Positions 25,530 through 53,928 of a stretch of DNA of 60,933 bases are shown piece by piece. The number at the start of each line of letters is the position of its first letter. The stretch's first letter is position 1. The notes beneath the pieces are model-generated. The model saw nothing but the letters and a program-made list of their open reading frames with translations, did not search any database and was not told where the DNA came from. A program made the translations under genes and the position numbers. Source of the stretch: a virus; the IMG/VR virus record IMGVR_UViG_3300051212_000930, positions 1-60,933 of that record, one strand, 5' to 3'.

Positions 25530-28500
25530 ATGTCTGATTATAAAATATCTTTAAGCGAAGTCGAGTCTTTTTTACTGGGTCACGATGACGAAAAATATAT
25601 CGTAAATTTAGAGTACGATAAAGAAACGAACTTAATTTATAAGTTCAAACAACTACCTGACGGCACAAAAACAACTGAAACCGAACCGCTTAAGTCCTTT
25701 ATGTGGATGAAACACCTCGGCGAGTTAAAAGAAAACCTTAATTTTTACGGTAAAAACGATCTAAACATTCAAAATGCTAGAAAAGAATATGGTATAACCA
25801 TAACCGAACTTGACCACCAAAACCACCCTAAGCTTGAGACTGGTTACCAATATTTGGTAACTTGCGATCAGGGGCATGAAAGAATGTTGCAGTTTTTTAG
25901 AAACGGAGGTCTTTATGGTGGTGTGTACGATAGACGTAATGGTATAAATGAAAACTTCTTAATTTTGAGCCCTATCGAACAATACCTAATATCAACAGGT
26001 AAAAGGCTTTATAAAGGTTATGAGGACTACGACAATCTAGAAAAATTCGTATTTGACTTAGAGACAACTGGTTTGGATCCTAAAACTTCTAGGATATTTT
26101 TAGTTGGTTGTAAGTCAAATAATGGTTTTGAGGAATTATTTGATTGTGAAACCGATGGTGAAAATGCTGACAGAAGTGAAGTTGCCGCGATAGCTAAATT
26201 TTTTGCGGTTATCGATTATTTAAAACCAACAATAATTGGGGGGTACAATAGTGCAAACTTTGACTGGGATTTTATTTTTAAAAGATGTGAAATACTTGGT
26301 GTTGATATAACTAAAATCGCCAAAACACTAAAAAACGGTGAAGTTATTAATAATCGAGATGGTATATTAAAATTGGGTAACGAAATTGAAGATTATGTTC
26401 AAACAAACATGTTCGGATATTCGATTATTGATATTATACACTCTGTTAGAAGAGCTCAAGCAATTGACTCTAGCATGAAGTCAGCCTCGTTAAAATACGT
26501 TTGTAAGTATAACAAAGTAGCAAAAAAGAATCGTGTCTATATTAAAGGTGATAAGATTGGCGCTTTATGGTCTAGCGATAAAAAATATTATTTTGATGAT
26601 AAGACTGGTTCTTATTTAGAAATAAAACCAAAATTTGAAAAAATGGATTATATCACAAGAGAAATTGTTCGAGATAATCCTAAAAAAATATTTGTTTTTG
26701 GTGATAATGATGAGCGTGATGGTTTTGGTGGCCAGGCTGGCCAAATGAGGGGGGAAAAAAACTCAATTGGAATACCAACAAAGAAAAAACCAACAATGGA
26801 TCCTGATGCGTTCTATTGTGATTCCGAATTTGAAGAAAATAAGAAAAAGATTAATTATGCGGTAACGCAAATTTTATCAAAAATACGAGATGGTTATAGT
26901 GTTGTTTTTCCATCAGATGGTCTTGGTACTGGTTTAGCTGAATTACCAAAAAGAGCGCCAAAAACTTATCAGTTTTTACTGGCAAATATTAATGCCATTG
27001 AAAAGTATGTCAATCACGATTGGATTGAAGTTGATGGTAAATACATAGTTAAAAGGTATTTGATGGATGACTTATGGGAGACCATGGAAGTTGATAACAT
27101 CTACAATCAAACATCTTTTATGTTGGCTAAAATGATCCCAACCACATATCAAAGAGTGTCAACCATGGGTACCGCTGGGTTATGGAAACTACTAATGCTA
27201 ACATGGTCTTATGAGAAAAATTTAGCAATACCAATTTCGGATAGAAAAAGAGATTTTGTTGGGGGGTTATCAAGACTATTAAAAGTTGGGTTCTCAAAAG
27301 ACTTGAGAAAAATGGACTTTAACTCACTGTACCCAGCTATACAATTAGCGCATGATGTATTCCCATCTGTTGATGTTAGTGGTGTAATGAAATCTTTCTT
27401 AAAATATTTTCACTCTGAAAGATTTAAAGCAAAAGACTTGGCTAAAAAATATGGTAAAGAGGGTAATAAACAACTTGAGTCGCTTTACAAAAGAAAACAA
27501 TTACCACTTAAAATCTTCATCAACTCGATGTTCGGTGCGTTGGGTGCACCAAATGCGTTCCCGTGGGCTGAAATGGATGTTGCTGAGGGTATAACATGTA
27601 GAGCTAGGCAGTATCTTCGTTTAATGGTTAAGTTCTTTATGAAAAGAGGTTACCAACCAACTGTACTTGACACTGACGGTGTTAACTTCATGGCGCCAAG
27701 TACAGGTGAAGAACATTTTTATTATGTGGGTAAAGGTTATAATAGCGAAGTTGTTGCGGGTAAAGAATACAGAGGTGTACATGCCGTTGTTGCTGAATTT
27801 AATGATTTATATATGAAAGGCGAGATGGCACTTGGTTTAGATGGTATGTGGCCAGCCACACTAAATTTAGCTCGTAAAAACTATGCTCTACTTGAAAATG
27901 ATGGTAGTATTAGTTTAACTGGAAATACGATTAAATCTAAAAAGCTACCAATTTATATTGAAGAGTTTTTGGATAAGTCTATTGTTTTACTTTTAAACGG
28001 TAAGGGTTATGAGTTTGTCCAACTTTATTATGATTATATAGGTAAGATATGTGACAAAAAAATACCTTTGGCTAAAATCGCAACCAAAGCTAGGGTTAAA
28101 AAAACTATTGAACAATATAGAAACAGAGGTGTTAACAAAAACGGACAACCATTACCAAAACAAGCTCATATGGAATTGGCTATTTTAAATAATATATCGG
28201 TCAGTTTGGGTGATACACTTTATTATGTGAATAATGGTACAAAAAAATCTCACGGAGATATCCAAACAACCAAAAAATGTAAGTTAAAGGCGGCTGAAGT
28301 TAGATTGTTTGAGATTAATAATGGTAAGTCACCAGGCCCAGAGTATTATGATATAACTGAAAAAATAAATTGCTATCTTCTTGATGAAAAGCAAATGGAG
28401 GCTAACCCAGAAGCTGTTGGGGAATACAATGTTGAAAAATATGTTGCGATGTTTAATTCTAGAATCAAAGGGCTTTTGGTTAATTTTGATATTAAGGTTA

Positions 28501-28736
28501 GAAACCAAATACTAATTAACAACCCAGAAGAAAAAAAGAATTGGATGGTATCAGAACTTGAAATGGTTAATAGCCAACCAAATAAAGAAAGCGATCAAGA
28601 TACAATTGAGGAATTATTCACACCATCAGACCTTGAAAAGATTTATTGGGGTAAATACAATTACGATTCTGATTTTTGGTTTACGGATAATGTCAATTTC
28701 ACAATCCCAGGTTTGGGTAGAGAAGTACCTGTTTAG
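25530..28736 (+). CDS. Family B DNA polymerase with a macro-like domain inserted in the exonuclease
   Basis: This 1068-residue replicative polymerase has Exo I 'FDLETTGLDP' (D176, E178), Exo II 'GGYNSANFDWDF' near residue 236, and Exo III 'YLMDDLWET' near residue 510. Polymerase motif A is 'MDFNSLYPAI' near 595, motif B 'KIFINSMFGALG' near 660, and motif C 'DTDG' at 714-717, where most family B enzymes have DTDS. Between Exo II and Exo III, residues about 375-500 form an extra domain: 'KKIFVFGDNDERDGFGGQAG', 'RGEKNSIGIPTKKKP', 'VVFPSDGLGTGLAELP'. I know this as a small stand-alone phage/bacterial domain with macro-domain-like features (from memory DUF7831). No intein or splice motifs are present, so it stays in the mature enzyme. 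The gene is monocistronic behind a host-type promoter. Confidence 0.95.
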   Translation: MSDYKISLSEVESFLLGHDDEKYIVNLEYDKETNLIYKFKQLPDGTKTTETEPLKSFMWMKHLGELKENLNFYGKNDLNIQNARKEYGITITELDHQNHPKLETGYQYLVTCDQGHERMLQFFRNGGLYGGVYDRRNGINENFLILSPIEQYLISTGKRLYKGYEDYDNLEKFVFDLETTGLDPKTSRIFLVGCKSNNGFEELFDCETDGENADRSEVAAIAKFFAVIDYLKPTIIGGYNSANFDWDFIFKRCEILGVDITKIAKTLKNGEVINNRDGILKLGNEIEDYVQTNMFGYSIIDIIHSVRRAQAIDSSMKSASLKYVCKYNKVAKKNRVYIKGDKIGALWSSDKKYYFDDKTGSYLEIKPKFEKMDYITREIVRDNPKKIFVFGDNDERDGFGGQAGQMRGEKNSIGIPTKKKPTMDPDAFYCDSEFEENKKKINYAVTQILSKIRDGYSVVFPSDGLGTGLAELPKRAPKTYQFLLANINAIEKYVNHDWIEVDGKYIVKRYLMDDLWETMEVDNIYNQTSFMLAKMIPTTYQRVSTMGTAGLWKLLMLTWSYEKNLAIPISDRKRDFVGGLSRLLKVGFSKDLRKMDFNSLYPAIQLAHDVFPSVDVSGVMKSFLKYFHSERFKAKDLAKKYGKEGNKQLESLYKRKQLPLKIFINSMFGALGAPNAFPWAEMDVAEGITCRARQYLRLMVKFFMKRGYQPTVLDTDGVNFMAPSTGEEHFYYVGKGYNSEVVAGKEYRGVHAVVAEFNDLYMKGEMALGLDGMWPATLNLARKNYALLENDGSISLTGNTIKSKKLPIYIEEFLDKSIVLLLNGKGYEFVQLYYDYIGKICDKKIPLAKIATKARVKKTIEQYRNRGVNKNGQPLPKQAHMELAILNNISVSLGDTLYYVNNGTKKSHGDIQTTKKCKLKAAEVRLFEINNGKSPGPEYYDITEKINCYLLDEKQMEANPEAVGEYNVEKYVAMFNSRIKGLLVNFDIKVRNQILINNPEEKKNWMVSELEMVNSQPNKESDQDTIEELFTPSDLEKIYWGKYNYDSDFWFTDNVNFTIPGLGREVPV

Positions 28737-35155: not shown

Positions 35156-35827
35156 ATGGAAAACTTTTCAATGACAATAGCTTTCTCAACAAGAAAAATA
35201 AATCAAGAGTATGTTGAACACGTTAAAAAATCATGTGCATGCCCAGATTTAGAGTTGTTGGTTTATGAAAACAATGGTGATAAAAGTTTAACTGAAGTTT
35301 ATAACGAAGTTTTAAAAACCGCAAAAAATGATGTTGTTGTTTTTTGTCACGATGATTTAATTTTTGACACACCTTATTGGGGTAGAAAATTAATTAAACA
35401 TTTTAAAAGAAACCCAGATTATGGCATAATCGGAATTGCTGGCACCAACAATCTAATAAACGGTAGGTGGTGGTCGTTAAGGGAATCAATGCATGGTATT
35501 GTCAATCATACGGATGGTAATAGAAAATGGACAAGTATGTTTTCTCAACCACAAGGTAATAAAATAAAACAAATGGTTATACTTGATGGTTTGTTTTTTG
35601 CCGTTGATAAGACAAAAATTAAACATGGCTTTGATGAGGATTTTAATGGGTTTCATTTTTATGACTTATCATTTTGTATACCAAATCATTTAGATGGTGT
35701 TAAAATTGGTGTTATAACAGATATAATGGTCACACACCTATCTGTTGGTATGACCAATCAGAAATGGGAAGACAATAAAACGTTACTTGAAAAAAAATAT
35801 GCGGACAAATTCCCAATTAAAATATGA
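35156..35827 (+). CDS. GT-A glycosyltransferase, StrF-like
   Basis: This 223-residue protein fits the StrF-type family 2 glycosyltransferases. It has 'IAFSTRKINQEYVEHV', then 'LTEVYNEVLKTAKNDVVVFC', the metal-binding 'CHDDLIF' and 'GFDEDFNGFHFYDLSFC', where the Asp-Glu-Asp and His-x-Tyr-Asp pattern matches catalytic positions. These proteins glycosylate surface polymers or small molecules. The gene ends 4 bp into the next one. Confidence 0.8.
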   Translation: MENFSMTIAFSTRKINQEYVEHVKKSCACPDLELLVYENNGDKSLTEVYNEVLKTAKNDVVVFCHDDLIFDTPYWGRKLIKHFKRNPDYGIIGIAGTNNLINGRWWSLRESMHGIVNHTDGNRKWTSMFSQPQGNKIKQMVILDGLFFAVDKTKIKHGFDEDFNGFHFYDLSFCIPNHLDGVKIGVITDIMVTHLSVGMTNQKWEDNKTLLEKKYADKFPIKI

Positions 35828-36486
35828 AAAACATTACTAGTTTAAAAAATACCCATTCTGGGGAGGACATTTATATTTTAGCATCGGGTAAATCAGTTGA
35901 TTTTTTTGATGAAAGTTTTTTTGATGGTAAAATTGTCATAGGCGTTAATCAGGCGTACAAATTTACTTGGTGTGATTATCTTGTCAGGAAAGAGGTTAAA
36001 TTTATTAAACAAAGTTTAGAGACGGAATCTGTTGTTATTGTTTCCGAATATGATAGTGGTAATTTAAATTCAGGTGAACAAAAATTAAATACAAATAAAA
36101 TCGATCACCCAAATTTATATTATTTTGAACATTTGGATAATCAACACGCAAGATTAGATACATCTGTTTTTGGTACCGATAAAATTGTTGTTAGTTTTTC
36201 GACTATCACATCAGCCATACACATCGCAGCTTACATGGGTGCTAAAAATATCATTTTAATTGGCCACGATTGTGGTACGATTGATGGTGAAATGACGTTT
36301 AAGGGGTATTATGATTCTATTAAAGACACACCATGGATAAGCTGGGATCAATATAAGAGTTGGTTAAAAATAATAGAAAGTCAAACGATAGAGGTTAAAA
36401 AACAAGTAAAAAAACACTATGGTGCTAATGTTGTATCAATCCTACCATTTGTTTCATTAAACTTAGAAAATCATTTATATTTGTGA
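35824..36486 (+). CDS. DUF115/Maf-like glycosyltransferase
   Basis: This 220-residue protein resembles the MptE-like domain of Maf proteins, which attach nonulosonic acids to flagellins. It has 'GEDIYILASGKSVDFF' in the first nucleotide-binding loop, 'VIGVNQAYKFTWCDYLV', and 'SAIHIAAYMGAKNIILIGHD' with the terminal His-Asp-Cys. Its neighbour downstream is a CMP-nonulosonic acid synthetase. Transfer of a sialic-acid-type sugar is therefore plausible. The fold also occurs in other glycosyltransferases, so donor and acceptor are inferred from context. Confidence 0.6.
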   Translation: MKNITSLKNTHSGEDIYILASGKSVDFFDESFFDGKIVIGVNQAYKFTWCDYLVRKEVKFIKQSLETESVVIVSEYDSGNLNSGEQKLNTNKIDHPNLYYFEHLDNQHARLDTSVFGTDKIVVSFSTITSAIHIAAYMGAKNIILIGHDCGTIDGEMTFKGYYDSIKDTPWISWDQYKSWLKIIESQTIEVKKQVKKHYGANVVSILPFVSLNLENHLYL

Positions 36487-37115
36487 TAAAATATATTATA
36501 CCAGCGAGACGAAACTCAAAAGGGTTTCCATTTAAAAATAGAAAATTAATAAATTATACGTTAGATAATCTACCAAAAAACGTATATGACGATGTTATTT
36601 TAACTACCGATGATGAAAAGTTATTGGAAATTGGTTTAAAATATGGTATAAAATGTATTAATAGAAACGCAAGCTTAGCTTTAGATGAAACCTCAACCAA
36701 GGAAGTGATGGACGATCTAAAGTTTCAAGGTATTATTAATGACACAGACATTGTTGTTATGTTATATTTGACATATCCGCAAAGAAACTGGTTAGATATA
36801 ATTAACGCTTTGCGGTTTTTTGATAATAAAAATGCAAAAAGCCTTTTGTGTAAAAAAGAAATAACAACAACCCACCCATATTTATATTTACTTGAAGTTG
36901 GTGATTTTAAGGGTAAACAATTAACCCCCCATAATCTATACAGAAGGCAAGATTATCCAAAAGTTTTTGAAGTATCACACTTTATATCTATTTTTAAAGT
37001 CAGTGAACTCGAAAATTTAAATAATAATCTTTATAATAACGACACCGTTTTTTATCCAATTGATGATATAATTGATGTTGACACTAATAAAGATTTAGAA
37101 AGGTTTTTAGAATAA
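36483..37115 (+). CDS. neuA: CMP-nonulosonic acid synthetase (NeuA-like)
   Basis: This 210-residue protein starts at GTG 36483, overlapping the previous stop by 4 bp. It has the family opening 'IIPARRNSKGFPFKNRKLIN' (IPAR-x-SKG and KN), 'VILTTDDEKLLEIGLKYG' and 'CINRNASLALDETSTKEVMD', and ends with 'IIDVDTNKDLERFLE', the VDVDTxxD metal-binding end. The enzyme joins CTP and a 2-keto sugar acid (sialic, legionaminic or pseudaminic acid) to give the CMP-sugar donor. It pairs with NeuB (42987-43829) and GT29-like (37115-38251) proteins. The next gene starts at its last base. Confidence 0.85.
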   Translation: MIKYIIPARRNSKGFPFKNRKLINYTLDNLPKNVYDDVILTTDDEKLLEIGLKYGIKCINRNASLALDETSTKEVMDDLKFQGIINDTDIVVMLYLTYPQRNWLDIINALRFFDNKNAKSLLCKKEITTTHPYLYLLEVGDFKGKQLTPHNLYRRQDYPKVFEVSHFISIFKVSELENLNNNLYNNDTVFYPIDDIIDVDTNKDLERFLE

Positions 37116-38251
37116 TGGGCATTTTTATAAAAAATAAAACAAAAAGGGTACAAAAAGATGACACAAAACAACCAGTGTTAACTAATACAGCGACTAATAA
37201 ATCTTTAATAGGTGAAGAGGTTGTTGTTGCTGAAAAAAAAGCAATTAAAAAAGGATTTGCTGATAAAAAAATTGTAAACAAAGAACCAGTAAAGACTACA
37301 ATTAATTCTTTGTCGGTTAATAAAGAGGAAAAAAAATCTGTGTTGTTATTTGAAAATAACACAAAAAATGAACCGACCACAAATTTATTAATTAATAAAA
37401 TTAATAATTCTTCAGGTAGAAACTCAATTTTTGACAAAGTTGTTGCCCCAGAAATTAAAAATTCAAATGACAAAGTTGTTAACGACATTTATGATAAAGC
37501 TAGGAAAAATATTAGTTTTATAAAAAATAAAAATAATAAGTATTATGATTTTGTTTTCACTAAAGGGTACATAAATGAAAAAGATATTAAACATGTTAAC
37601 ACTGAACTAGATAAACAATTAAATAATTTAAAAATAAATCCGTCAACAATGGATTTATACTTTTTTAAATCGTTTATAAAAGATAAAACAATTGCTCTCA
37701 TTGCCAACTCTTCTGATTTATTAAATAAAAAACTTGGCGGGGAAATCGATTCTCACGATATTGTAATTAGATTTAATTCGTATAAAATATTAAAAGAGGA
37801 CACTGGTGAAAAATTAACTATGCATGTTAGCATTTATTTACAAAATGAAAATTTAAATAATTTTGCGCCCATTAGATTTATCCTTTCAGGTATTAAAACA
37901 AACTGGGCTAAAAAAATATTAACATTAAATAAGTTCAATCAATCCACAATATTAAAGTATAATCATCACTCAATATTACCAGGTAATTTCAAAGATGATT
38001 CGCCAACCACAACAGGTTTTGCTACTTTAATTTTACTACTTAAAATTGGTGGTTTTAAAAAAATCAATATGTTTGGTTTTGATTTTTATCAAAAAGGTAA
38101 TGATAGTTTATTTAGAACGGACATTGGTATGGAATCACAAATATCCACCGTCCATGATTATTTCTTTGAAAAAGAATTTATAATGGAATATTCGTATGAA
38201 TATAACGATAAAAAAAATATAATTACTTTTTATGATTATAGCACATTTTAA
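37115..38251 (+). CDS. GT29-type (eukaryote-like) sialyltransferase
   Basis: This 378-residue protein has a Lys/Asn-rich, probably disordered front (about 1-125). From residue 191 the GT29 motifs appear in order. Sialyl motif L is 'IALIANSSDLLNKKLGGEID' followed by S-H-D-I-V-I-R-F-N (N198, D212, H214, D215, R219, N221). Motif S is 'SPTTTGFATLILLLKIGGFK' followed by 'INMFGFDF' (296-324). Motif VS is H347-x4-E352, with the catalytic His. These residues bind CMP-sialic acid and act as base in animal sialyltransferases. No transmembrane anchor is seen. It follows the CMP-sugar synthetase directly, so it very likely uses that product. GT29-like proteins exist in some bacteria and phages, so transfer direct from a eukaryote is not implied. 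Confidence 0.78.
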   Translation: MGIFIKNKTKRVQKDDTKQPVLTNTATNKSLIGEEVVVAEKKAIKKGFADKKIVNKEPVKTTINSLSVNKEEKKSVLLFENNTKNEPTTNLLINKINNSSGRNSIFDKVVAPEIKNSNDKVVNDIYDKARKNISFIKNKNNKYYDFVFTKGYINEKDIKHVNTELDKQLNNLKINPSTMDLYFFKSFIKDKTIALIANSSDLLNKKLGGEIDSHDIVIRFNSYKILKEDTGEKLTMHVSIYLQNENLNNFAPIRFILSGIKTNWAKKILTLNKFNQSTILKYNHHSILPGNFKDDSPTTTGFATLILLLKIGGFKKINMFGFDFYQKGNDSLFRTDIGMESQISTVHDYFFEKEFIMEYSYEYNDKKNIITFYDYSTF

Positions 38252-39080
38252 AGAAACCCCAATAGCGTATGCACCAGAGGCGATTAGTGATGTTATAAAC
38301 AAATACACAGATCATAAATCTTATGTTTTTGGTTACGGTTACCCGAATAAAAAATTAATACCAAAAACCGACATACTCCATTTACATAATATGGATAGAA
38401 ATTATAATTTTGGTAAAAAAGTAATACAGTATCATAGTGAACCTTTTAGAGTAACATTAGATGTAAAGACAAAAAAATTGGTAATAGCTCAGTATCACGC
38501 AACCTTACCTGAATATAATAATTGTACTGTTGTCAGAAATCCAATTGACATTTATGATATAAAATTTTTACCAAAATATCAAAACAAAAAAATAAGAATC
38601 GGTTATTCCCCATCAACACTTAGGCCGTTATCAATTTGGGCGGATAAAGGATATGCAGAAACATACCCCATTTTACAAAAAATAAAATCTAAATACGGAA
38701 ACTCCGTTGAAGTCGACATAATTGTAAATGTTCCATTAGATGAATGTTTAAGACGGAAATCTTTATGCAATATTTTTATTGATGAAGTTAAAACAATATC
38801 ATACCATAGGTCTGGATTGGAATCATTATCAATGGGTATACCAACAATATGTTCTATTGGCCCAACAGTTGAAAGTTTATTGTTAAAATCTTCGAATGCG
38901 ACAACTAATCCATTTATTAATGTAAATCATAACCAATTAGAAAAAAAACTAGTGGAGTTAATTAATTTAGGTTTAAATGGTTTATTGGAAATTGGTTACA
39001 ATAGTAGACTTTGGATGGAAAAACATTGGTCACCAGATACCATTGCAAACGAATATATTGAAATATATAAAAAAATTTAA
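38232..39080 (+). CDS. GT-B glycosyltransferase
   Basis: This 282-residue protein is a compact GT-B type transferase. It has 'DILHLHNMDRNYNFGKKVIQ' in the N-domain, 'RIGYSPSTLRP' opening the C-domain and 'SGLESLSMGIPTICSIGP', the donor-binding Glu motif (GT4-like 'E-x7-E' region, first Glu in 'GLES'). The start overlaps the GT29 gene by 20 bp and its reading is supported by the coupled spacing. Acceptor and donor sugars cannot be told. Confidence 0.75.
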   Translation: MIIAHFKETPIAYAPEAISDVINKYTDHKSYVFGYGYPNKKLIPKTDILHLHNMDRNYNFGKKVIQYHSEPFRVTLDVKTKKLVIAQYHATLPEYNNCTVVRNPIDIYDIKFLPKYQNKKIRIGYSPSTLRPLSIWADKGYAETYPILQKIKSKYGNSVEVDIIVNVPLDECLRRKSLCNIFIDEVKTISYHRSGLESLSMGIPTICSIGPTVESLLLKSSNATTNPFINVNHNQLEKKLVELINLGLNGLLEIGYNSRLWMEKHWSPDTIANEYIEIYKKI

Positions 39081-39081
39081 A

Positions 39082-39741
39082 ATGAAAAAATATTCAGTTA
39101 TAATACCAACAATGTGGATGTCTAGCCATTTATTTAAAATGTTAGATATTTATGAGGAAAATAATTTAATAGAAGAGGTTATACTTATAGATAATGCACC
39201 AGAAAAAAATGTAGCACTACCAAAACAAATAAGTAAATTAAAGTTACATACTAAAGGTAAAAATATATATGTTAACCCATCGTGGAATTTTGGTGTTTCG
39301 ATAGCAATAAGTGATTATATTATAATCGCCAATGATGATATATTATTTAATAAAAAAGATTTTAATGATTTGCTAAATAAATCATTTGAATTTTTAAATG
39401 AAAATACCATAATTGGGCCATCAATGTATTGTTTTAAACAAAATGGCCTGGTTAAATATGATTTAAAAATCGAAAAAACCGATAGTCAATTTACTTATGG
39501 GTTTGGAACTTTTATGATAATGAAAAAGGAATCTTACACGATAATACCAGATGATATTTTAATATTTCATGGGGACGTAATTCAACATAAAACAAATGAG
39601 GTATTTTTATTTAGCGGCATTGAAATTGATACTCCCATGAGTGTTACGCTTAAAAGCGACCCACAAATACACAATTTAGCTAGATTAGATCACGCTAAAT
39701 CATTAAAATATGATGTTAAAAAATTAATTAAATTTAAATAA
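39082..39741 (+). CDS. GT-A glycosyltransferase (family 2-like)
   Basis: This protein has 219 residues from ATG 39082, one base after the previous stop. A longer reading from 38977 would overlap the upstream gene by over 100 bp and lacks the family start. It has 'YSVIIPTMWMSSHLFKML' as the opening GT2 strand, 'EEVILIDNAPEKN', and the metal-binding 'IIANDDILFNKKDF'. The C-terminal part carries 'GFGTFMIMKKESY'. Family 2 fold is clear, donor is not. Confidence 0.75.
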   Translation: MKKYSVIIPTMWMSSHLFKMLDIYEENNLIEEVILIDNAPEKNVALPKQISKLKLHTKGKNIYVNPSWNFGVSIAISDYIIIANDDILFNKKDFNDLLNKSFEFLNENTIIGPSMYCFKQNGLVKYDLKIEKTDSQFTYGFGTFMIMKKESYTIIPDDILIFHGDVIQHKTNEVFLFSGIEIDTPMSVTLKSDPQIHNLARLDHAKSLKYDVKKLIKFK

Positions 39742-40386
39742 ATGGCAAACGGAATTTACAAAATAACAGAAGAATTTGAAAAAGCACTATCTGACTATAC
39801 AGGTGCCCCATATGTAATTACTGTGGACAATCAGTCAAACGCGTTGTTTTTGGCGTTATACTATGAAAAAAACATAAAAAAATCTATTATTTCGGAGTAT
39901 ATTGGAATCCCTTCAAGAACCTATCCTTCAGTTCCATGTGAAATTATCCATGCTGGACTTAAAGTACTTTTTGATAAAGTAGAAGGTAATACTTTAAAGG
40001 GCGCTTACGAATTAAGAGGTAGTAATGTATGGGATTCGGCATTAAGATTCACATCTGAAATGTATATGCCTGGTACACATATGTGTATTTCTTTTACGGG
40101 CCCATATAAACACTTTAAACTAAGTAAGGGGGGCGCCATCTTAACCGATAGTCATGAGGCTTATTTATGGTTTAAAAGGGCTAGGTATAGCGGTAGAAGA
40201 GAATGTTCTTACCACGATGATCATTTTGATATGCTTGGTTGGAATTTTTACATGATGCCAGAACTAGCAGCGCGTGGAATGTTGTTAATGAACCAATTTT
40301 ACAATATTGATGGCACCAAGAAAAAAAATGAAGATTTAGAATTACCTTATCCAGATTTATCAAAATTTGATATTTATAAAAAATGA
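39742..40386 (+). CDS. Short DegT/DnrJ-type aminotransferase-like protein
   Basis: This 214-residue protein covers the PLP-binding part of the DegT/DnrJ/EryC1/StrS sugar aminotransferases. It has 'FEKALSDYTGAPYVITVDNQ' and 'NALFLALYYE', 'YIGIPSRTYPSVPCEIIHAG', 'VWDSALRFTSEMY', then 'CISFTGPYKHFKLSKGGAIL', where the Lys (from the ISFTxxxK motif) is the expected Schiff-base residue. Full enzymes have about 370 residues; this one stops after the PLP site and lacks the C-terminal domain that helps bind the substrate. There is no downstream in-frame remnant, as the next gene begins at the overlap. It may work as a homodimer with a shortened active site or be a scaffold; either is inference. Confidence 0.7.
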   Translation: MANGIYKITEEFEKALSDYTGAPYVITVDNQSNALFLALYYEKNIKKSIISEYIGIPSRTYPSVPCEIIHAGLKVLFDKVEGNTLKGAYELRGSNVWDSALRFTSEMYMPGTHMCISFTGPYKHFKLSKGGAILTDSHEAYLWFKRARYSGRRECSYHDDHFDMLGWNFYMMPELAARGMLLMNQFYNIDGTKKKNEDLELPYPDLSKFDIYKK

Positions 40387-41105
40387 AACACATAGTTGTC
40401 TTTTTAGCCTATGAGAATTTTGATATGATTAAAAAATCATTTAATTCTTTAAAAAATTCAAATTCTGATTTTTTCATAATAGAGAATTTTTCTAAAAATT
40501 CAAATAGTATAAAAGAATTTTTTATAAAAGAAAAATTAATTGGGTATATTCAATTTTTAGATAACGCCAGAGCTAATGCTGTAAATATTTTTATTGAAAA
40601 ATATTACGATTTATTATCTCAGTATGATTACGTAACAATAACTGATGGTGATTTATTTATATATGATATAGCAGATACATTTAAAGAAATAATTTTATCA
40701 TTTAACGATATTAATTGTTATGTTTGTGGTGTTACATTGTATAAGGGTAATAATTATGAAAATAACCCCAACAGAATTATTGGTACTGAACATTATGTTG
40801 AACACATGTTGAGTAAGTCTGAACATAAAATAGGGCCGATAAAAGGTAGAACAGGTAATCATTTATTAACTTTTAACAAAAAAAGCCTAAATGTTATTAA
40901 AGATGTACATTATATTGATTCAAATATTTTTTTAAAAATAAAAAATTTGGGCGGGTCTTGTTATAGAACAACAAAAAATTTAGCTTATCATTTAACTTGG
41001 GATTTATATTTTGACGGTAACCCATATTACGAAAATAAAAAAAATAATTTAAAAGAAATTTGGGCTAAATCAAATGATAATTTTATGTATAATCAAATCA
41101 TATGA
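40383..41105 (+). CDS. GT-A-like glycosyltransferase
   Basis: This 240-residue protein resembles small family 2/GT-A transferases. It has 'IVVFLAYENFDMIKKSFNSL', then 'YVTITDGDLFIYDIADTF' with a D-G-D metal motif, and a C-terminal 'LGGSCYRTTKNLAYHLTWDL' in place of the acceptor-binding strand. It overlaps the aminotransferase-like gene by 4 bp and the NeuD-like gene by 4 bp. Family membership is by fold pattern; the sequence is diverged. Confidence 0.65.
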   Translation: MKHIVVFLAYENFDMIKKSFNSLKNSNSDFFIIENFSKNSNSIKEFFIKEKLIGYIQFLDNARANAVNIFIEKYYDLLSQYDYVTITDGDLFIYDIADTFKEIILSFNDINCYVCGVTLYKGNNYENNPNRIIGTEHYVEHMLSKSEHKIGPIKGRTGNHLLTFNKKSLNVIKDVHYIDSNIFLKIKNLGGSCYRTTKNLAYHLTWDLYFDGNPYYENKKNNLKEIWAKSNDNFMYNQII

Positions 41106-41689
41106 AAAAGGCGTTAATAGGTGCTGGTGGCTTTGCACGTGAAATTAAAGCCCACATTGGGGACGAATCAATGATATGTTTTGTTGATGATAATTATTAT
41201 ATGGGTGATATTCATACATTACCCCTAAGCCAATTTGACCCAAATGAGTATGAGGTGTTAATTGCTATTGGAGATCCACGCGCAAGGTATGAGGTATATA
41301 GTCGATTACCTAAAGAAACTAAATATTTTACGCATATTGATAAACGAGCTATTATATTGGACAGTGATGTTGAAATCGGTGAGGGTAGTATTGTTTGTGC
41401 GGGTTGTATATTAACGACAAATATTAAAATAGGTAGACACGCTCACTTAAATCTACAAACGACAATTGGACATGACACAATTATCGGTGATTTTTTTACA
41501 ACAGCGCCTGGTGCAAAAGTATCGGGTAATTGTACAATATATGATTTAGTGTATATCGGTACAAACGCATCTATTAGAGAAAAAATAACAATTCATAGTT
41601 TAGCGACAATAGGTTTAAATGCTGGTGTTGTAAAAGACATAATTGAGCCAGGTGTTTATGGTGGGACACCATGTAAAAAAATTAAATAA
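41102..41689 (+). CDS. neuD: NeuD/PglD-family sugar O/N-acyltransferase
   Basis: This 195-residue protein has the two-domain layout of NeuD and PglD. The N-terminal Rossmann-like domain has 'ALIGAGGFAREIKAH' and 'YEVLIAIGDPRARYEVY'; the C-terminal left-handed beta helix has hexapeptide repeats from about residue 75 ('AIILDSDVEIGEGSIVCAG' onward) and ends 'EPGVYGGTPCKKIK', the family terminus. The helix forms trimers with acetyl-CoA at the interface. PglD acetylates an amino-sugar in bacillosamine or legionaminic-type pathways and NeuD acetylates sialic acid, so this one probably decorates the nonulosonic acid or its precursor. Exact substrate is inferred. Confidence 0.85.
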   Translation: MKKALIGAGGFAREIKAHIGDESMICFVDDNYYMGDIHTLPLSQFDPNEYEVLIAIGDPRARYEVYSRLPKETKYFTHIDKRAIILDSDVEIGEGSIVCAGCILTTNIKIGRHAHLNLQTTIGHDTIIGDFFTTAPGAKVSGNCTIYDLVYIGTNASIREKITIHSLATIGLNAGVVKDIIEPGVYGGTPCKKIK

Positions 41690-41690
41690 T

Positions 41691-42305
41691 ATGCAAAATA
41701 CAATAGAATCTTTAAATTTAATTAAAAAAATATCAGATGAAATTAATAATATGACATTTCATCATCATTATTATATTTTATATGATGTGGCTAAAGAATT
41801 TGGAACCGCACCAATTAACTATGTTGAAATAGGCTGTTATGCTGGGGGCTCCGCTTGTCTTATGTTACAAAGACCAAATACCAACGTAATTAGTATTGAT
41901 TTAGGCATACCAATTAGTTCAGATATAGTTAAAGAAAATGTAAAAAAATTAAATATTTTAAATAACCATTACAATTACATACAAGGTAACTCACAAAAAA
42001 TTCAAACCGTTAATGAATTAAAAAACTTAATTCAATCAATTGATATTTTATTCATCGATGGTGATCATAGTTACAACGGTGTTATTAACGATTTTAATTT
42101 GTATTCTAAAATGGTAAAACCAGGTGGTTATATTGTTTTTGACGATTACAATGACAAACAACATAGTCCTCAAGTTAAAGTAGCTGTTGATGATTTATTA
42201 AAAAATAACTACGAGTATGAAATATTTGGTACGTTACCAAATGTTTTTGGCGCCAGGCCTAGTGAATTAAAAGAGGGTAATTGTTTTATAATTAAAAAAA
42301 AATAA
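41691..42305 (+). CDS. Class I SAM-dependent methyltransferase
   Basis: This protein has 204 residues from ATG 41691, 1 bp after the previous stop. An earlier in-frame ATG at 41643 lies inside the upstream gene and is disfavoured. It has motif I 'YVEIGCYAGGSACLML', the acidic loop 'NVISIDLGIPISSD', 'DILFIDGDHSYNGVINDFNL' and 'KPGGYIVFDDYND'. This matches the methyltransferase_24 type often found in sugar clusters, where it O-methylates glycans. Motifs are complete; substrate is unknown. Confidence 0.82.
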   Translation: MQNTIESLNLIKKISDEINNMTFHHHYYILYDVAKEFGTAPINYVEIGCYAGGSACLMLQRPNTNVISIDLGIPISSDIVKENVKKLNILNNHYNYIQGNSQKIQTVNELKNLIQSIDILFIDGDHSYNGVINDFNLYSKMVKPGGYIVFDDYNDKQHSPQVKVAVDDLLKNNYEYEIFGTLPNVFGARPSELKEGNCFIIKKK

Positions 42306-42306
42306 T

Positions 42307-42987
42307 ATGTTAGCCATTGTTATAGCCACATATCAAAGAAATGATGGCACCACACCAAATCATTTAACCAAAGCGCTAACCTCAATTAAAAACCAAACAT
42401 ATCAAAAGTACACTGTATTTTTAATTGGTGATCATTACGATGACAATGATGAATTTGTAAAATTAGCGACATCAATAATTGATTCCGATAAAATTGTATT
42501 TGTAAATTTACCAAATGCCGTTGAACGAAAAAAATATCCATTTGGTGATAAGCGCCTATGGTCATCTGGTGGCGTAAATGCGGTTAATTTTGGTATTAAG
42601 CTTGCTTTGGAACAAAATTATAGTTATATTTGTAGACTAGATCACGATGACTGGTGGGCGCCAGAACATTTGGATTTAATAAAAGATAAATTAAACGAAA
42701 ACCATTTAATAATTGCAACAAAAGGTGTACATTTTACAAAACAAATATTACCTGTGAAAGATAAAAACCCATTTTATCCACGAAGTTCCGATTTAATACA
42801 CTCATCTGTTTGTGTAAATTTTAGAGAAACACCGTTAAGATATCGTGATGTTTTTGCTGAAGAGGGTACCATTTATGCAGCTGACGCTGATTTATGGAAT
42901 CGAATGTCGGATTATATGGTAAAAAACAATAAAACGGGTTATTTAATAAACAAGGTAACGTGTTATCATAGTAATGAAAGAAAGTAA
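42307..42987 (+). CDS. GT-A glycosyltransferase (family 2)
   Basis: This 226-residue GT2 protein has 'LAIVIATYQRNDGTTPNHL', 'ALTSIKNQTYQKYTVFLIGD', the metal-binding 'CRLDHDDWWAPEHLDLI' and 'AADADLWNRM', where the Asp-Ala-Asp-Leu near the end is the base region. Its stop overlaps the NeuB start by 1 bp. It is one of about nine transferases in the island. Confidence 0.88.
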   Translation: MLAIVIATYQRNDGTTPNHLTKALTSIKNQTYQKYTVFLIGDHYDDNDEFVKLATSIIDSDKIVFVNLPNAVERKKYPFGDKRLWSSGGVNAVNFGIKLALEQNYSYICRLDHDDWWAPEHLDLIKDKLNENHLIIATKGVHFTKQILPVKDKNPFYPRSSDLIHSSVCVNFRETPLRYRDVFAEEGTIYAADADLWNRMSDYMVKNNKTGYLINKVTCYHSNERK

Positions 42988-43829
42988 TGGCTACAAAAAT
43001 TATCGCAGAAATAGGAATTAATCACAATGGTGATATGGAAATCGCTAAACAACTTATTGTGGTAGCAAAAGCCGCTGGGTGTGATTATGTGAAATTCCAG
43101 AAGAGGAATCCAGATGTGTGTGTCCCAGAAGATCAAAAAAGTAAAATTCGTCAAACACCTTGGGGTGAAATGACATATTTGGAGTATAAATGGAGAACCG
43201 AATTTAATTATGAGCAATATTGTGAAATTGACGAATTTTGTCATCAAATAGGTATTAAATGGTTTGTATCCGTTTGGGATAAAAGTAGTGTAGATTTTAT
43301 GGATATTTTCAAAAGACTGGGTAAAGCATATGATGGCACCATGAAAATACCGTCAGCTTTAATCACCGATTTAGAACTTTGTAAATACGCTAGAGCAAAC
43401 TGTGATAAGTTAATAATTTCAACTGGAATGAGTACTGAAAATGAAATCAAATCTTGTGTTAATGTTTGTCACCCAGACGTTATTATGCATACTAATTCAA
43501 CATATCCGTGCCCAGTAGAAGAATTAAACCTTAATTATATCAATTGGCTTAAAAGTTGGTATTTTGGCGCTGACATTGGTTATAGTGGTCACGAATACGG
43601 TTTAGTAACAACATTTGCAACTATTTCAATGGGGGTTACTTGGATTGAAAGACACATCACTTTAGATAGAAATATGTGGGGTTCTGACCAATCTGCTTCA
43701 ATAGAACCATCTGGACTTTTTAAATTGGTTAAAGGTGTCCGCGACATAGAAGCTGCATTAAGTATACCAATGAAACCGAGAGAAGTTTTAGGTGGTGAAT
43801 TAATCAAACAAAAAACTTTAAGAAAATAA
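42987..43829 (+). CDS. neuB: Nonulosonic acid synthase (NeuB family), lacking the SAF domain
   Basis: This 280-residue TIM-barrel protein condenses a hexose-type substrate with PEP. It has 'IIAEIGINHNGDMEIAKQLI' (residues 5-24), 'CDYVKFQKRNPDVCVP', 'KIPSALITDLELCKYA', 'LIISTGMSTENEIKSC', 'MHTNSTYPCPVEELNLNYI', 'DIGYSGHEYG' and 'WIERHITLDRNMWGSDQSAS'. The barrel motifs, including the metal-binding His, are complete. Typical NeuB proteins have about 345 residues because a C-terminal antifreeze-like SAF domain (~60 residues) completes the active site of the partner subunit. Here the protein ends shortly after the barrel ('PREVLGGELIKQKTLRK') and the next gene starts on its last base, so the domain is absent, not displaced by a frameshift. 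Confidence 0.9.
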   Translation: MATKIIAEIGINHNGDMEIAKQLIVVAKAAGCDYVKFQKRNPDVCVPEDQKSKIRQTPWGEMTYLEYKWRTEFNYEQYCEIDEFCHQIGIKWFVSVWDKSSVDFMDIFKRLGKAYDGTMKIPSALITDLELCKYARANCDKLIISTGMSTENEIKSCVNVCHPDVIMHTNSTYPCPVEELNLNYINWLKSWYFGADIGYSGHEYGLVTTFATISMGVTWIERHITLDRNMWGSDQSASIEPSGLFKLVKGVRDIEAALSIPMKPREVLGGELIKQKTLRK

Positions 43830-44155
43830 TGAATATTTACGTAGACGTGGATAACACAATAACGGAAACTTCTGGTATGGATTATCAAAATGCCAAACCA
43901 ATATACTCAAAAATATTAATAATAAATAAACTTTATGATAGTGGTCATACAATAACTTATTGGACTGCCAGAGGATCTGTATCTGGAATTGATCATTATA
44001 GCCTAACAAAAAATCAATTAGATAGTTGGGGTGTAAAATACCACAATTTTATGGTTGGAAAGCCAGCGTTTGATCTTTTAATTGACGATAAAACAATAAA
44101 TAACATTAACGAAAACCTTTTTACATGGGTAACCAAAGAAGAAGAAAAAAACTAA
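43829..44155 (+). CDS. Small HAD-family phosphatase-like protein
   Basis: This 108-residue protein matches short Bacteroides-type HAD proteins in capsule loci. It has 'IYVDVDNTITETSG' (catalytic D6 and D8), 'GHTITYWTARGSVSG' with motif II Thr, and 'MVGKPAFDLLIDDKTIN' with the motif III Lys and motif IV Asp pair. It lacks a cap domain. Such enzymes act on sugar phosphates; in Bacteroides a HAD phosphatase completes sialic acid or KDN synthesis after a phosphorylated NeuB product. Adjacency to NeuB favours that role, but a general nucleotide phosphatase is possible. It overlaps PhoH by 31 bp. Confidence 0.8.
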   Translation: MNIYVDVDNTITETSGMDYQNAKPIYSKILIINKLYDSGHTITYWTARGSVSGIDHYSLTKNQLDSWGVKYHNFMVGKPAFDLLIDDKTINNINENLFTWVTKEEEKN

Positions 44156-44862
44156 CACCAGAAGAAGAATTAGAAGCTCTTGAAGCTATTAATCGAGGGC
44201 ATTCTGGTAACATATTTGATAAAATCAAAATCGATATTAAATCAAAAACACCGAATCAAAAAAAATTGGTGAATGAAATAAAAGCAAAAGAAATAGTAAT
44301 ATGTTCTGGCTTACCTGGTACAGGTAAAACTTTTTTATCTTGTGCGGTTGCACTAGAATTATTGAAAAATGACCCGAGATATAAAAAAATTGTAATTGTA
44401 AAATCTGTAACAACTTTAAAAGACGAGGAAATTGGGTTCTTAAAAGGTACTATGAAAGAAAAAATGGAACCGTTTATGTATTCTTTTATGCATAATTTTG
44501 AAAAAGTAATCGGTAAATACAATGTCGAAGCTTTAAGAAATGCGGGTATGATCGAAGAGCTACCAATAGCTTACATGAGGGGTATTAATATTGATAATTC
44601 AATTACAATTATTGACGAGGCCCAAAACATATCAATAGATAATATTAGAACAATAATGACCAGACTTGGTGAAAATTCAAAAATGATATTTTTGGGGGAT
44701 GAAAACCAAATTGACATGAAGAAAAAATCTGAAAGCTCATTAAATTTCATTATAAACAAATTTAAAGACTTTGATGAGGTTGGTACAATTACCTTAGGTG
44801 AAGAAGACGTTGTTAGAAATCCTTTAATTAAGAAAATCGAACAGATTTTCAGAGAAAAGTAA
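44125..44862 (+). CDS. phoH: PhoH-like ATPase
   Basis: This 245-residue protein is the size of a phage PhoH. It has Walker A 'GLPGTGKT' (residues 62-69), Walker B 'ITIIDEAQN' (D164-E165), sensor-like 'MTRLGENSKMIFLGDENQID' and a C-terminal 'GEEDVVRNPLIKKIEQIF'. Related proteins are ATP-dependent RNA/DNA-binding helicase-like enzymes; phosphate-starvation links are known only in some hosts. It overlaps the HAD gene by 31 bp. The N-terminal ~50 residues are basic and Glu-rich. Confidence 0.93.
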   Translation: MGNQRRRKKLTPEEELEALEAINRGHSGNIFDKIKIDIKSKTPNQKKLVNEIKAKEIVICSGLPGTGKTFLSCAVALELLKNDPRYKKIVIVKSVTTLKDEEIGFLKGTMKEKMEPFMYSFMHNFEKVIGKYNVEALRNAGMIEELPIAYMRGINIDNSITIIDEAQNISIDNIRTIMTRLGENSKMIFLGDENQIDMKKKSESSLNFIINKFKDFDEVGTITLGEEDVVRNPLIKKIEQIFREK

Positions 44863-52374: not shown

Positions 52375-53928
52375 ATGGGAATTTACCGCACATATTTTGA
52401 CAAGAATAATACAATAGTAAGAAATTCTTTAGTTAATACAGGCAGAAACCAGGTTTCTGAGCTATATTTTGGTGACAAAGTCAGTAGATTTTTGTTTTAC
52501 TGTTCATTTGATGAAATAAAAAATAAAGTTGAAAATAAAGAAATTATTATCAATGGCGATGTTAAACACTATCTTAGGATAAAGAATACATCAAATTTTG
52601 ATGTTTCACCTTTTTTATCTGATAGCAATAATTTGGTTTTTACTGATAAGTATAGATCATCTTCTTTTGATTTAGAATTAAAACCAGCAAAAGAGTTTTG
52701 GGATGAAGGTATGGGTTATGATTTTCAATTAAGCCCATTTTCCAGGCCACAAGATAGGGACTTTAACGAAGAACCGTCAAACTGGTTCAATGGCACATAC
52801 GTCAATGAATTTTTGACGCCAGGTGTTACATTGGGTAACAGAATAGCTTTACAACATTTTGATAGAGGCAATGAGGATGTTTTAATGGATATCACCAATT
52901 TCGTTAATGGAATTATTACCACAGGAATAACCACTGGTATAACAACGGGGATAACCACTGGCATGACTACTGGAATTACAACTGGAATTACAACGGGGAT
53001 AACCACTGGCATGACTACTGGAATTACCACTGGTATAACATACATAATAACAACAGGTATTACAACAGGAATCACCACTGGAATTACTACTGGCGTAACA
53101 AGTAGTTATAACGGATTTTGTTTAAAATATACCGATCCATACGAATCTTTAGTATTCGATGATGCCAGGGCTTATGTTTTGGGTTTATTTACAAAATATA
53201 CACAAACATTTTTTGAACCTTTTATCGAAACACATTATAATGACCATATAGTTGATGATAGAGTTGATTTTTTCTTAAATAAAACTAATAGGTTGTATCT
53301 TTATGTAAATGTTGATGGTAAATTAACTAATTTAGATGAATTACCATCATTTAATATCGATGGGGTTGTTACTTTAAATCCATTTGTTGTTAAACAACAA
53401 ACAAAGGGTGTTTATTATGTTGAATTTTTTGCATCAAGCGATGTTTATGATTCTTATACTGAATATAAAGATGTATGGTCTAACATAAAAATTAATGGTA
53501 TTAACAGACCAGATATAAAATTACGTTTTGTACCCAAAGAAGATAATGATTATTACCAATTAGGATCGGATGTTTCCGAACCAATTAGGTATGGATTATC
53601 AATTAGTGGTATAAAAAGAGAGGAAAAAATTAACCAAGGAGAAAAAAGACGCATTAATGTGCATCTTAGGAAACCATATACTGTTGAACAACAAGACGTA
53701 AAAACTAACGTATATTATAAATTATACGTCAAACAGGGCCCAAATGTTATAGATATACTTGATTGGCAACCCGTCAATAAATTATATAATTCAAATACAT
53801 TTAATATTGATACGACCTGGTTAGTACCTCAAATATACTACGTGGATATTAAGATTGAAAGGAATGATGAGGTTAATGTTTATAATGAAGAATTAAAATT
53901 CACTATTTTAAGTAAATTAAAAGGATAA
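52375..53928 (+). CDS. Virion structural protein with a 14-copy TTG[I/M/V] repeat
   Basis: This 517-residue protein has a beta-rich N-terminus (residues 1-178), then a pure tetrapeptide array of T-T-G plus Ile, Met or Val (residues about 181-240, 14 TTG units, broken once by 'TYI'), then a C-terminal beta-sandwich (about 245-517) with 'GFCLKYTDPYESLVFDDARA' that resembles fibre receptor-binding or Ig-like modules. The array is unlike collagen (no Gly-x-y). It could form a short beta-helix or a flexible tether between the two domains. Related short arrays occur in the proteins at 23600-25063 and 1-6496. A fibre or baseplate-appendage role is inferred. Its stop overlaps the next start by 1 bp. 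Confidence 0.72.
   Translation: MGIYRTYFDKNNTIVRNSLVNTGRNQVSELYFGDKVSRFLFYCSFDEIKNKVENKEIIINGDVKHYLRIKNTSNFDVSPFLSDSNNLVFTDKYRSSSFDLELKPAKEFWDEGMGYDFQLSPFSRPQDRDFNEEPSNWFNGTYVNEFLTPGVTLGNRIALQHFDRGNEDVLMDITNFVNGIITTGITTGITTGITTGMTTGITTGITTGITTGMTTGITTGITYIITTGITTGITTGITTGVTSSYNGFCLKYTDPYESLVFDDARAYVLGLFTKYTQTFFEPFIETHYNDHIVDDRVDFFLNKTNRLYLYVNVDGKLTNLDELPSFNIDGVVTLNPFVVKQQTKGVYYVEFFASSDVYDSYTEYKDVWSNIKINGINRPDIKLRFVPKEDNDYYQLGSDVSEPIRYGLSISGIKREEKINQGEKRRINVHLRKPYTVEQQDVKTNVYYKLYVKQGPNVIDILDWQPVNKLYNSNTFNIDTTWLVPQIYYVDIKIERNDEVNVYNEELKFTILSKLKG
52915..53094 (+). repeat. Minisatellite-like tandem repeat coding (TTG[I/M/V])n
   Basis: About 180 bp made of degenerate 12-bp units (consensus ACTGGAATTACA and variants) encoding fourteen TTG tetrads. 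Wobble positions vary (ACA/ACC/ACT/ACG, GGA/GGT/GGG/GGC) while the amino acids are constant, so selection acts on the protein. The reverse strand also stays open over this stretch, which explains the long antisense frame there. Confidence 0.9.

Follow-up and report, generated by a model that had tools for sequence, protein, structure and literature searches.

A nonulosonic acid gene set in a T4-like phage

The window analyzed here, that is, the whole stretch of 60,933 bases of the IMG/VR virus record IMGVR_UViG_3300051212_000930 (G+C content 31.3%), belongs to a T4-like myovirus, with genes for a T4-type portal (Portal_T4, E = 3.6e-77), a T4-like terminase (4.6e-11), a tail sheath (PHROG 23, 1.2e-58) and a DNA polymerase B. 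Within a tight run of genes (35156–44155), it encodes predicted enzymes for the synthesis, cytidine monophosphate (CMP) activation and transfer of a nonulosonic acid (NulO), a sugar of the sialic acid type. Most known occurrences of such sugars are in animals or on bacterial surfaces. An initial annotation of this DNA had ascribed all three activities to the phage, and the protein families, most of the catalytic residues checked and the co-occurrence of the genes across many phage loci bear this out; in particular, Pfam and NCBIfam matches identify the NeuB, NeuA-type, GT29, NeuD-like and DegT-type genes at the positions where it had recognized them. The most secure result is the phage-borne set of predicted NeuA, NeuB and GT29 enzymes with conserved residues. 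The core module consists of a Cst/Maf-like protein, NeuA, a GT29 sialyltransferase, a further glycosyltransferase (GT), NeuB and a small HAD phosphatase, which are arranged as follows (lengths in amino acids, aa; scores in bits against the model cut-off).

35156–35827, plus strand: GT2/GT-A glycosyltransferase, conserved upstream neighbor of the module, found at the corresponding position in close relatives (PF13712, E = 2.6e-26)
35824–36486, plus strand: putative NulO transferase, Cst/Maf-like (GT42/MptE fold; PF01973, 8.2e-7, 29.4 bits, below the cut-off of 34.6; PHROG 4603)
36483–37115, plus strand: NeuA-type CMP-nonulosonate synthetase with a GTG start (PF02348, 2.3e-10, 41.1 against 22.6; PDB 1eyr, 2.5e-11)
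37115–38251, plus strand: GT29 sialyltransferase, catalytic part at aa 185–378, with an unusual N-terminal tail (PF00777, 7.6e-11, 42.3 against 23)
38232–39080, plus strand: putative glycosyltransferase of a family shared with the huge phage LR756508 (42% identity over 286 aa in locus L010; no Pfam match)
39082–39741, plus strand: GT2-like protein, start at 39082 inferred (PF00535, 2.2e-4, 21.6 bits, below the cut-off of 23.3; scanned as a longer frame from 38977)
39742–40386, plus strand: short DegT-type pyridoxal phosphate (PLP) protein of 214 aa, first gene of a putatively inserted amino-sugar module (PF01041, 6.8e-12, 45.7 against 19.8)
40383–41105, plus strand: protein with no family match above cut-off, same module
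41102–41689, plus strand: NeuD/PglD-type hexapeptide acetyltransferase, same module (TIGR03570, 7.6e-47, 159.5 bits, slightly below the cut-off of 160.8)
41691–42305, plus strand: methyltransferase, same module, ATG start inferred (PF13578, 2.6e-18)
42307–42987, plus strand: GT2 glycosyltransferase (PF00535, 2.5e-11)
42987–43829, plus strand: NeuB-type nonulosonate (probably nonulosonate-9-phosphate) synthase without a SAF domain (PF03102, 8.6e-60, 202.6 against 22.1)
43829–44155, plus strand: small HAD phosphatase (BcbF/EcbF type), proposed NulO-9-phosphate phosphatase (TIGR01689, 7.2e-8; PDB 9iqw, 1.4e-16)
44125–44862, plus strand: PhoH, conserved phage neighbor downstream (PF02562, 3.4e-58; synteny)

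The overlaps of 1–4 bp described initially hold for seven of the 12 junctions between 35827 and 43829 but not for the rest, which comprise four gaps of 0–1 bp and one overlap of 20 bp (with the starts at 39082 and 41691 inferred). The cassette had been delimited at 36483–43829, and its genes are indeed there, but the HAD phosphatase of the NulO set lies just beyond that boundary. Lipopolysaccharide-type genes (RfaE-like, cupin) and several generic GTs flank the cassette.

Conserved residues of NeuB and NeuA

Compared with the Neisseria NeuB (PDB 1xuu), the window NeuB keeps E25, K53, K129, S132, S154, Y186, S213, H215, H236 and D247, positions that we take to be active-site residues. Across 97 viral rows, E25, K53, K129, S132, Y186, S213, H215 and H236 are invariant, and S154 and D247 are found in 96 and 95 rows, respectively. 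In NeuA, R9, S12, K18, N19, P99 and Q156 are present in all 90 rows, D200 in 89, K13 in 84 and D198 in 68.

The window NeuB, at 280 aa, has no residues left for the C-terminal SAF (antifreeze-like) domain, and the protein is 270–306 aa long in 84 of the 90 viral clusters that encode it (see below). Loss of SAF as a phage peculiarity was ruled out: all 80 bacterial NeuBs kept, the best of at least 575, likewise end within 26 residues past the synthase domain, and the Leptospira chain 6ncs has just 290 residues. Among these 80, the nearest cellular NeuBs belong to SAF-less operons of Chlorobi, Chloroflexi, Streptomyces, Hymenobacter and others, with 57% identity at most; the locus that reaches 57% (L273; loci are denoted by L and contigs by G) carries a HAD of the phage type and may itself be phage DNA. 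In a 9-row alignment of the region aa 57–73, P58, W59, G60, K68, E72 and F73 are invariant, and the TPWG motif of NeuB is present in the five bacterial rows shown and absent from all four PDB rows. It may make up for the lack of a SAF domain.

Co-occurrence of the genes in viral contigs

Of the loci from four scans of viral contigs, 234 (L039–L272) were grouped by shared sampled 60-mers, which gave 143 clusters, 90 with NeuB and 53 without. The relatives found in viral contigs number at least 539 for NeuB, 113 for NeuA and 207 for the short DegT, of which the best 80 loci were kept in each case, as were the best 80 of the at least 575 NeuB loci in genomes. Counted with iterated profiles, which widen the NeuA, GT29 and Cst/Maf-like sets, NeuA accompanies NeuB in 86 of the 90 clusters versus 5 of the 53 NeuB-less ones, and the HAD gene in 75 versus 2 (Fisher 1e-22); the corresponding numbers are 36 and 1 for GT29 and 52 and 7 for the Cst/Maf-like protein. 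Both NeuA and HAD are present in 72 of the 90 NeuB clusters, 63 of which also have GT29 or a Cst/Maf-like protein. Single-sequence queries find fewer members of the divergent families and give 73/90 versus 4/53 for NeuA, 74/90 versus 2/53 for HAD, 10/90 versus 1/53 for GT29 and 18/90 versus 0/53 for the Cst/Maf-like protein. The two groups are of similar locus length (medians 20,615 and 20,021). In the 74 NeuB clusters where the single-sequence search found HAD, this gene follows NeuB on the same strand in 68, and within 100 bp in 30.

Among 50,697 catalogued phage records, NeuB matched just three, namely, the huge phage LR756508.1, the marine single-amplified-genome virus MH319754.1 and a short Moritella contig, and NeuA matched two. 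LR756508 (484 kb) has, in a different order, NeuA, NeuB and HAD together with a 38232-family GT and four GT29-like open reading frames (ORFs); the four ORFs are located around NeuB (L038:7025–11843).

In the NeuB tree, which was built by a quick method with some long branches flagged and one 116-aa NeuB under the length limit left out, 84 of the 97 viral rows and one bacterial row form one starred set (99), and the viral label needs five changes in all. The terminase model PHROG 2 matches in 30 of the 39 NeuB-bearing records (the window included), with E ≤ 1e-20 in 23; the weak second match in the window is PhoH, the remaining weak ones are taken to be of the same kind, and the model also matches in 11 of 14 cellular control genomes. 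The strong matches in 23 of the 39 records argue against cellular contamination for those records.

The transferases

GT29 enzymes are best known from animals. The Pfam match of the window protein covers only aa 191–238 (48 residues), and the initial call of a GT29 sialyltransferase is strongly reinforced by profile and predicted fold. A 30-row profile of the phage family matches ST3Gal-I (2wml) with E = 9e-31, ST8SiaIII with 2e-23 and ST6Gal1 with 2e-22, and the GT42 Cst-II entries with 3e-14 to 2e-12. In the AlphaFold2 model of aa 185–378 (pLDDT 79.5, pTM 0.83), Foldseek ranks 1–30 are all animal sialyltransferases, with a best query TM-score of 0.69 (2wml) and a clear drop past rank 30. The domain residues N37, G117 and H163, presumably the Asn, Gly and VS-type His that sialylmotifs conserve, are invariant in 30 of 30 rows. 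Thus, the window protein is a GT29 family member by profile and modeled fold and a predicted CMP-NulO transferase. A tblastn search with the GT29 domain matched no phage record.

The N-terminal tail of this protein is seen only in the same slot, that is, in full-length relatives and in the proteins of L200 (631 aa; 2e-18) and L203 (611 aa; 2e-8); elsewhere, a single row matches at E = 0.03, and there is no further copy in the sister contig of the window (see below). Proteins of 611–631 aa occupy the NeuA–NeuB interval in L200:7128–9023, L203:8161–9996 and L206:8155–10002, and also in L201, L202 and L210; the one in L200 contains a GT8 domain (4.7e-21). It looks as if a common N-terminal tail carried exchangeable transferases.

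The gene at 35824 had been described as encoding a DUF115/Maf-like transferase. The MptE/DUF115-like match is there but stays below the cut-off, and PHROG 4603, annotated 'alpha-2,3-sialyltransferase', matches with 8.3e-9. A 25-row profile of the family matches the GT42 enzymes Cst-I/Cst-II (8.8e-5 to 9e-4) ahead of MptE (0.0019). In the alignment of these profile matches, the catalytic His of the Cst enzymes, which we take to be the GT42 residue for this comparison, is not matched; therefore, we keep the label Cst/Maf-like and do not claim a proven GT42 enzyme.

The DegT/NeuD block as a separate module

The initial annotation had assigned the NeuD-type acyltransferase and the aminotransferase-like protein to the NulO pathway, and this part is not supported: in other phages, including a cultured Flavobacterium phage, these genes form a separate module that usually lacks NeuB. 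Among the 53 clusters anchored on the short DegT, 41 contain NeuD and 4 contain NeuB, and among the 59 anchored on NeuB, NeuD is present in 1 and the short DegT in 16. All 12 close relatives shown (NeuB 71–91% identical) have neither gene between NeuA and NeuB. For example, the order in L199 is Cst/Maf-like, NeuA, GT29, GT, a 219-aa protein, NeuB, a 234-aa protein, methyltransferase, HAD and PhoH; in L207 and L209, it is NeuA, GT29, GT, a small protein, NeuB, HAD and PhoH; and in L129, NeuA, a 137-aa protein, NeuB and HAD. The block is shared with the window only by contigs L002–L004 (90–100%, the L002 rows not being split by locus). The cultured Flavobacterium phage immuto encodes the short DegT (81% identity over 214 aa) directly followed by a NeuD-like gene (60%); no further window protein matched in this 24.6-kb stretch, and the immuto record is not among the three catalogued records matching NeuB. 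Given the co-occurrence, the synteny and the immuto pair, the region 39742–42305 is best taken for an amino-sugar module that was inserted here, so that there would be two modules rather than one, the DegT/NeuD block being an insert that is usually found apart from NeuB. This block of short DegT, NeuD and methyltransferase between NeuA and NeuB probably makes another, N-acylated amino sugar.

The aminotransferase-like protein does belong to the DegT family but has merely 214 aa, against 358–445 residues for the DegT chains matched in PDB; the copy in contig G004 is of the same length, short of the approximately 360–390 aa of full-length aminotransferases. D98 and K123, presumably the PLP-domain Asp and Lys, are invariant in 38 of 38 rows, and the AlphaFold2 model (pLDDT 87.4) matches the fold of DegT aminotransferases (7b0d, Z = 17.7 over 198 residues, root-mean-square deviation 3.6). 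The protein may be a mini-aminotransferase or a non-catalytic relative. The short DegT, reduced to the PLP domain, is a highly conserved phage family (window 39742–40386; L353:12001–12645): the best 80 of the 207 loci are at least 77% identical to the window copy.

The HAD phosphatase and a proposed route to the sugar

In the small HAD protein encoded next to NeuB, D6, D8, T10 and T46 are present in all 74 phage rows and K78 and D87 in 73 each. A comparable arrangement is found in bacteria: among the best 80 bacterial NeuB loci, 69 have a KdsC-like HAD domain that is fused to NeuB or no more than 3 kb away (no more than 1 kb in 68), often in one ORF with NeuA; a NeuA-type domain is found nearby in 54, and a WecB-like gene in none. 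In the actinobacterial loci L289, L290, L292 and similar ones, NeuA-like, HAD and NeuB-like matches occur in a single ORF of approximately 685 aa, apparently a natural fusion that would cover three steps. The Chlorobi HAD (L274) has as its best PDB match, ahead of the KdsC entries, the Bacteroides entry 3e81 (E = 5.9e-31); it was named acylneuraminate cytidylyltransferase by its depositors, and we take it to be the Kdn-9-phosphate phosphatase of B. thetaiotaomicron.

The coupling of HAD to NeuB in phages and bacteria suggests a phosphorylated route, for which NeuC would perhaps be unneeded. The synthase, the HAD phosphatase and the CMP synthetase are encoded in one locus (36483–44155), which suggests the sequence hexose-6-phosphate, NulO-9-phosphate, NulO, CMP-NulO, with Kdn as a possible product; the simplest reading would be a NulO-9-phosphate synthase/phosphatase pair that feeds NeuA from a universal host hexose-6-phosphate. 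NeuB would condense phosphoenolpyruvate with the host sugar, converting mannose-6-phosphate to Kdn-9-phosphate or N-acetylmannosamine (ManNAc)-6-phosphate to Neu5Ac-9-phosphate, the adjoining HAD enzyme would take off the phosphate, NeuA would turn the free NulO into the CMP-sugar, and its transfer to an acceptor made by the neighboring GTs would fall to the GT29 sialyltransferase, the Cst/Maf-like protein or both. As described in PMC6200933, the pathways of B. thetaiotaomicron, Prymnesium parvum and humans run via phosphorylated sugars, whereas those of many bacteria do not, and mannose-6-phosphate is the only substrate taken by the P. parvum synthase.

Upstream precursor genes had initially been reported as lacking in the window, and NeuC had been proposed as a gene to be sought in the rest of the genome. 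PF02350 (NeuC/WecB) has no match in the window or in the 298.8-kb sister contig G002, where the best 4,6-dehydratase match is Gmd-like and approximately 170 kb away. The absence from the window stands, but it would leave no gap in a pathway starting from host hexose-6-phosphate, to which the HAD coupling points. Likewise, no gene for a sugar kinase or a nucleotidyltransferase that could fill in a precursor pathway was found in 15 phage records, the window among them (no match to the ROK kinase family PF00480 or to PF00483); because the records are possibly fragments, such absence is no proof. A candidate NeuC in the relative G004 was rejected: its PF02350 match is a non-hydrolyzing WecB (259.7 bits against a cut-off of 210.15; NeuC model, 70.8 against 235.9) and hence no evidence for a NeuC/ManNAc route.

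Alternative pathways and acceptors

We consider it fairly probable that the window comes from a jumbo T4-like phage that carries a CMP-nonulosonate module on a phosphorylated route together with a separate inserted amino-sugar block. Several observations count against this account. The HAD protein scores far below the BcbF/EcbF cut-off (32.4 bits against 162), and its substrate is a proposed one; the first Asp of its DD motif (D86) is an Asp in just 55 of the 74 rows; the HAD gene is absent from the fetched DNA in 15 of the 90 NeuB clusters (in 5 of these, no more than 1.7 kb follows NeuB); and its subfamily differs from the KdsC-like one of bacteria, where the phage type appears in 1 of the 80 loci. 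In NeuB, N74 and N184 of 1xuu are not kept (T and S in the window) and T110 is mostly Ser. The cut-offs of the NCBIfam equivalog models are not reached by NeuB (NeuB_NnaB, 201.7 against 399.65; PseI, 153.1 against 340.25) or, in the case of the PseF-specific model, by NeuA (51.2 against 205.7). Furthermore, the NeuB-less clusters are almost all anchored on the short DegT, so that the controls are not random phage loci. Finally, WecB-like epimerases are present in 16 of the 90 NeuB clusters, 14 of which also have HAD; these epimerases would be in keeping with a UDP-ManNAc route, or an unphosphorylated one, elsewhere.

The first alternative is an unphosphorylated route, in which NeuB would take ManNAc or a 6-deoxy-diacetamido sugar from host enzymes (of the NeuC, LegB/LegG or PseB/C/G type) and HAD would act elsewhere in glycan synthesis. 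The WecB-like genes of these 16 clusters and the higher score of NeuB with NeuB_NnaB than with PseI are in its favor, and the lack of PF02350 in the window and sister contig implies that the precursor would have to come from the host. Such a route has no need of HAD, yet this gene accompanies NeuB in most phage clusters and, in its KdsC-like form, lies close to or is fused with NeuB or NeuA in most of the bacterial relatives; we regard this alternative as doubtful. Less likely still is the single pathway envisaged initially, with the aminotransferase and NeuD making an N-acylated precursor of the legionaminic or pseudaminic type for NeuB. All the genes do form one run with tight junctions, the DegT matches include models for LegC and PseC (E = 2e-6), the short DegT of G004 and a full-length one of the LegC-like kind stand before WecB, NeuA and NeuB, and, over all 90 NeuB clusters, the short DegT is found in 28 and NeuD in 11. 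Nevertheless, co-occurrence and synteny weaken this pathway: NeuD is all but missing from NeuB-anchored clusters and NeuB from most short-DegT-anchored ones, the close relatives lack the two genes between NeuA and NeuB, the block being confined to L002–L004, and no 4,6-dehydratase was found among the cassette proteins scanned, the Gmd-like gene of the sister contig being far away. That the genes are decayed or passengers without function appears very improbable, considering the uninterrupted frames, the catalytic residues largely kept in the 97 NeuB, 90 NeuA and 74 HAD rows, and the recurrence of the same core in the very different huge phage LR756508.

The acceptor of the sugar is a separate matter. 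There is a nearly even chance, though somewhat short of it, that the sugar goes to the surface of the infected host, as a block to superinfection or a mask for lysing cells, rather than to the virion. The remodeling of host surfaces is a known phage strategy, and the flanking lipopolysaccharide-type genes and generic GTs fit it. However, the placement of the cassette between genes for replication (polymerase) and for the virion (sheath, portal, terminase) and the presence of a Maf-like protein (Maf enzymes glycosylate flagellin) agree equally well with direct protein glycosylation, and no polysaccharide transport or polymerase gene was found among the 20 proteins scanned. A more far-reaching proposal, which we put forward as unlikely but within reach, is that large uncultured phages possess a self-sufficient Kdn-type pathway that takes only mannose-6-phosphate, phosphoenolpyruvate and CTP from the host and uses their own animal-type GT29 for decorating virion proteins.

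Genome context and host

The window is collinear with a stretch of the sister contig G002, an IMG/VR contig of 298,833 bases. The top matches of the terminase among the catalogued phages listed are Flavobacterium phages 'immuto' (29% identity), and a megablast search with the first 25 kb of the window matched no phage record. A GGAGG motif is not visible in the 20 bases 5' of the 14 starts shown, with AAAGG at one of them; lack of a GGAGG-type motif before starts is a trait of Bacteroidota, so that this observation fits a Bacteroidota host. Altogether, we infer that this is probably a jumbo T4-like phage with a host from Bacteroidota.

In the last 59 kb of G002, the part that was scanned, 26 tRNA genes are located at 260001–281000, followed at 281–283 kb by a Gmd-like gene and another epimerase-like gene; there are no tRNA genes in the window. 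The DNA polymerase B of the window (25530–28736) contains, inside the polymerase, a DUF7831 match at aa 372–484. At 52903–53106, there is a tandem repeat with a 12-base unit, within an ORF (52375–53928) that has no PHROG match.

Relation to known systems

The presence of similar gene sets in many uncultured phages suggests that viruses may coat themselves or their hosts with a sugar of the sialic acid type. Found in many environmental contigs but in hardly any catalogued record, such a pathway could partly explain how phages hide or claim hosts, and the coat of environmental phages would become testable by an ordinary sugar assay. The phage GT29 members are new material on the origin of GT29 enzymes; if both the Kdn-type pathway and virion decoration are real, there would be phages with a sialic acid coat and possibly a viral reservoir of GT29 enzymes. 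With respect to the initial annotation, the most useful correction is the separation of the NeuD/DegT block and the inclusion of the HAD gene, and the most testable new idea is the Kdn-like phosphorylated route.

Among the matches listed in the open-license literature, no title or abstract start concerned a phage-encoded NulO synthesis cassette, GT29 not having been searched by name. Reads of neuB and neuA have been reported in viromes (Roux et al. 2013, PMC3877843); the section concerned gives read counts only, without gene context, partners, transferases or pathway. Prophage epaA/epaB and O-acetyltransferases are reported to act on Acinetobacter nonulosonic acids (PMC12053666, PMC6586298); these genes likewise alter nonulosonic acids but modify sugars made by the host, whereas the phage cassette would synthesize, activate and transfer its own.

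The system is best described as phage-encoded glycan synthesis in what appears to be a new variant, with NeuB, NeuA and GT29 assigned by homology to known families. With the GT29 sialyltransferases ST3Gal-I (2wml), ST8SiaIII (5bo6) and ST6Gal1, the phage protein shares the conserved sialylmotif Asn, Gly and His and the predicted fold, but it differs in the extra N-terminal tail and in identity, which is only approximately 15–20% in the fold alignment. The 35824 family matches the GT42 enzymes Cst-I/Cst-II and the Maf/DUF115 transferases by profile, but the GT42 catalytic His is not evident in it. The SAF-less bacterial NeuB operons share the type of NeuB with the phage and differ in the KdsC-type HAD, which is often fused to NeuA. 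The Kdn-9-phosphate pathway of B. thetaiotaomicron and P. parvum, as presented in PMC6200933, likewise combines a NeuB-type synthase, a phosphatase and a CMP-sugar synthetase, the phage counterpart being a predicted one. The phage set differs from this pathway in a small HAD of the BcbF/EcbF type, in the addition of a sialyltransferase and perhaps in its NeuB, which lacks SAF.

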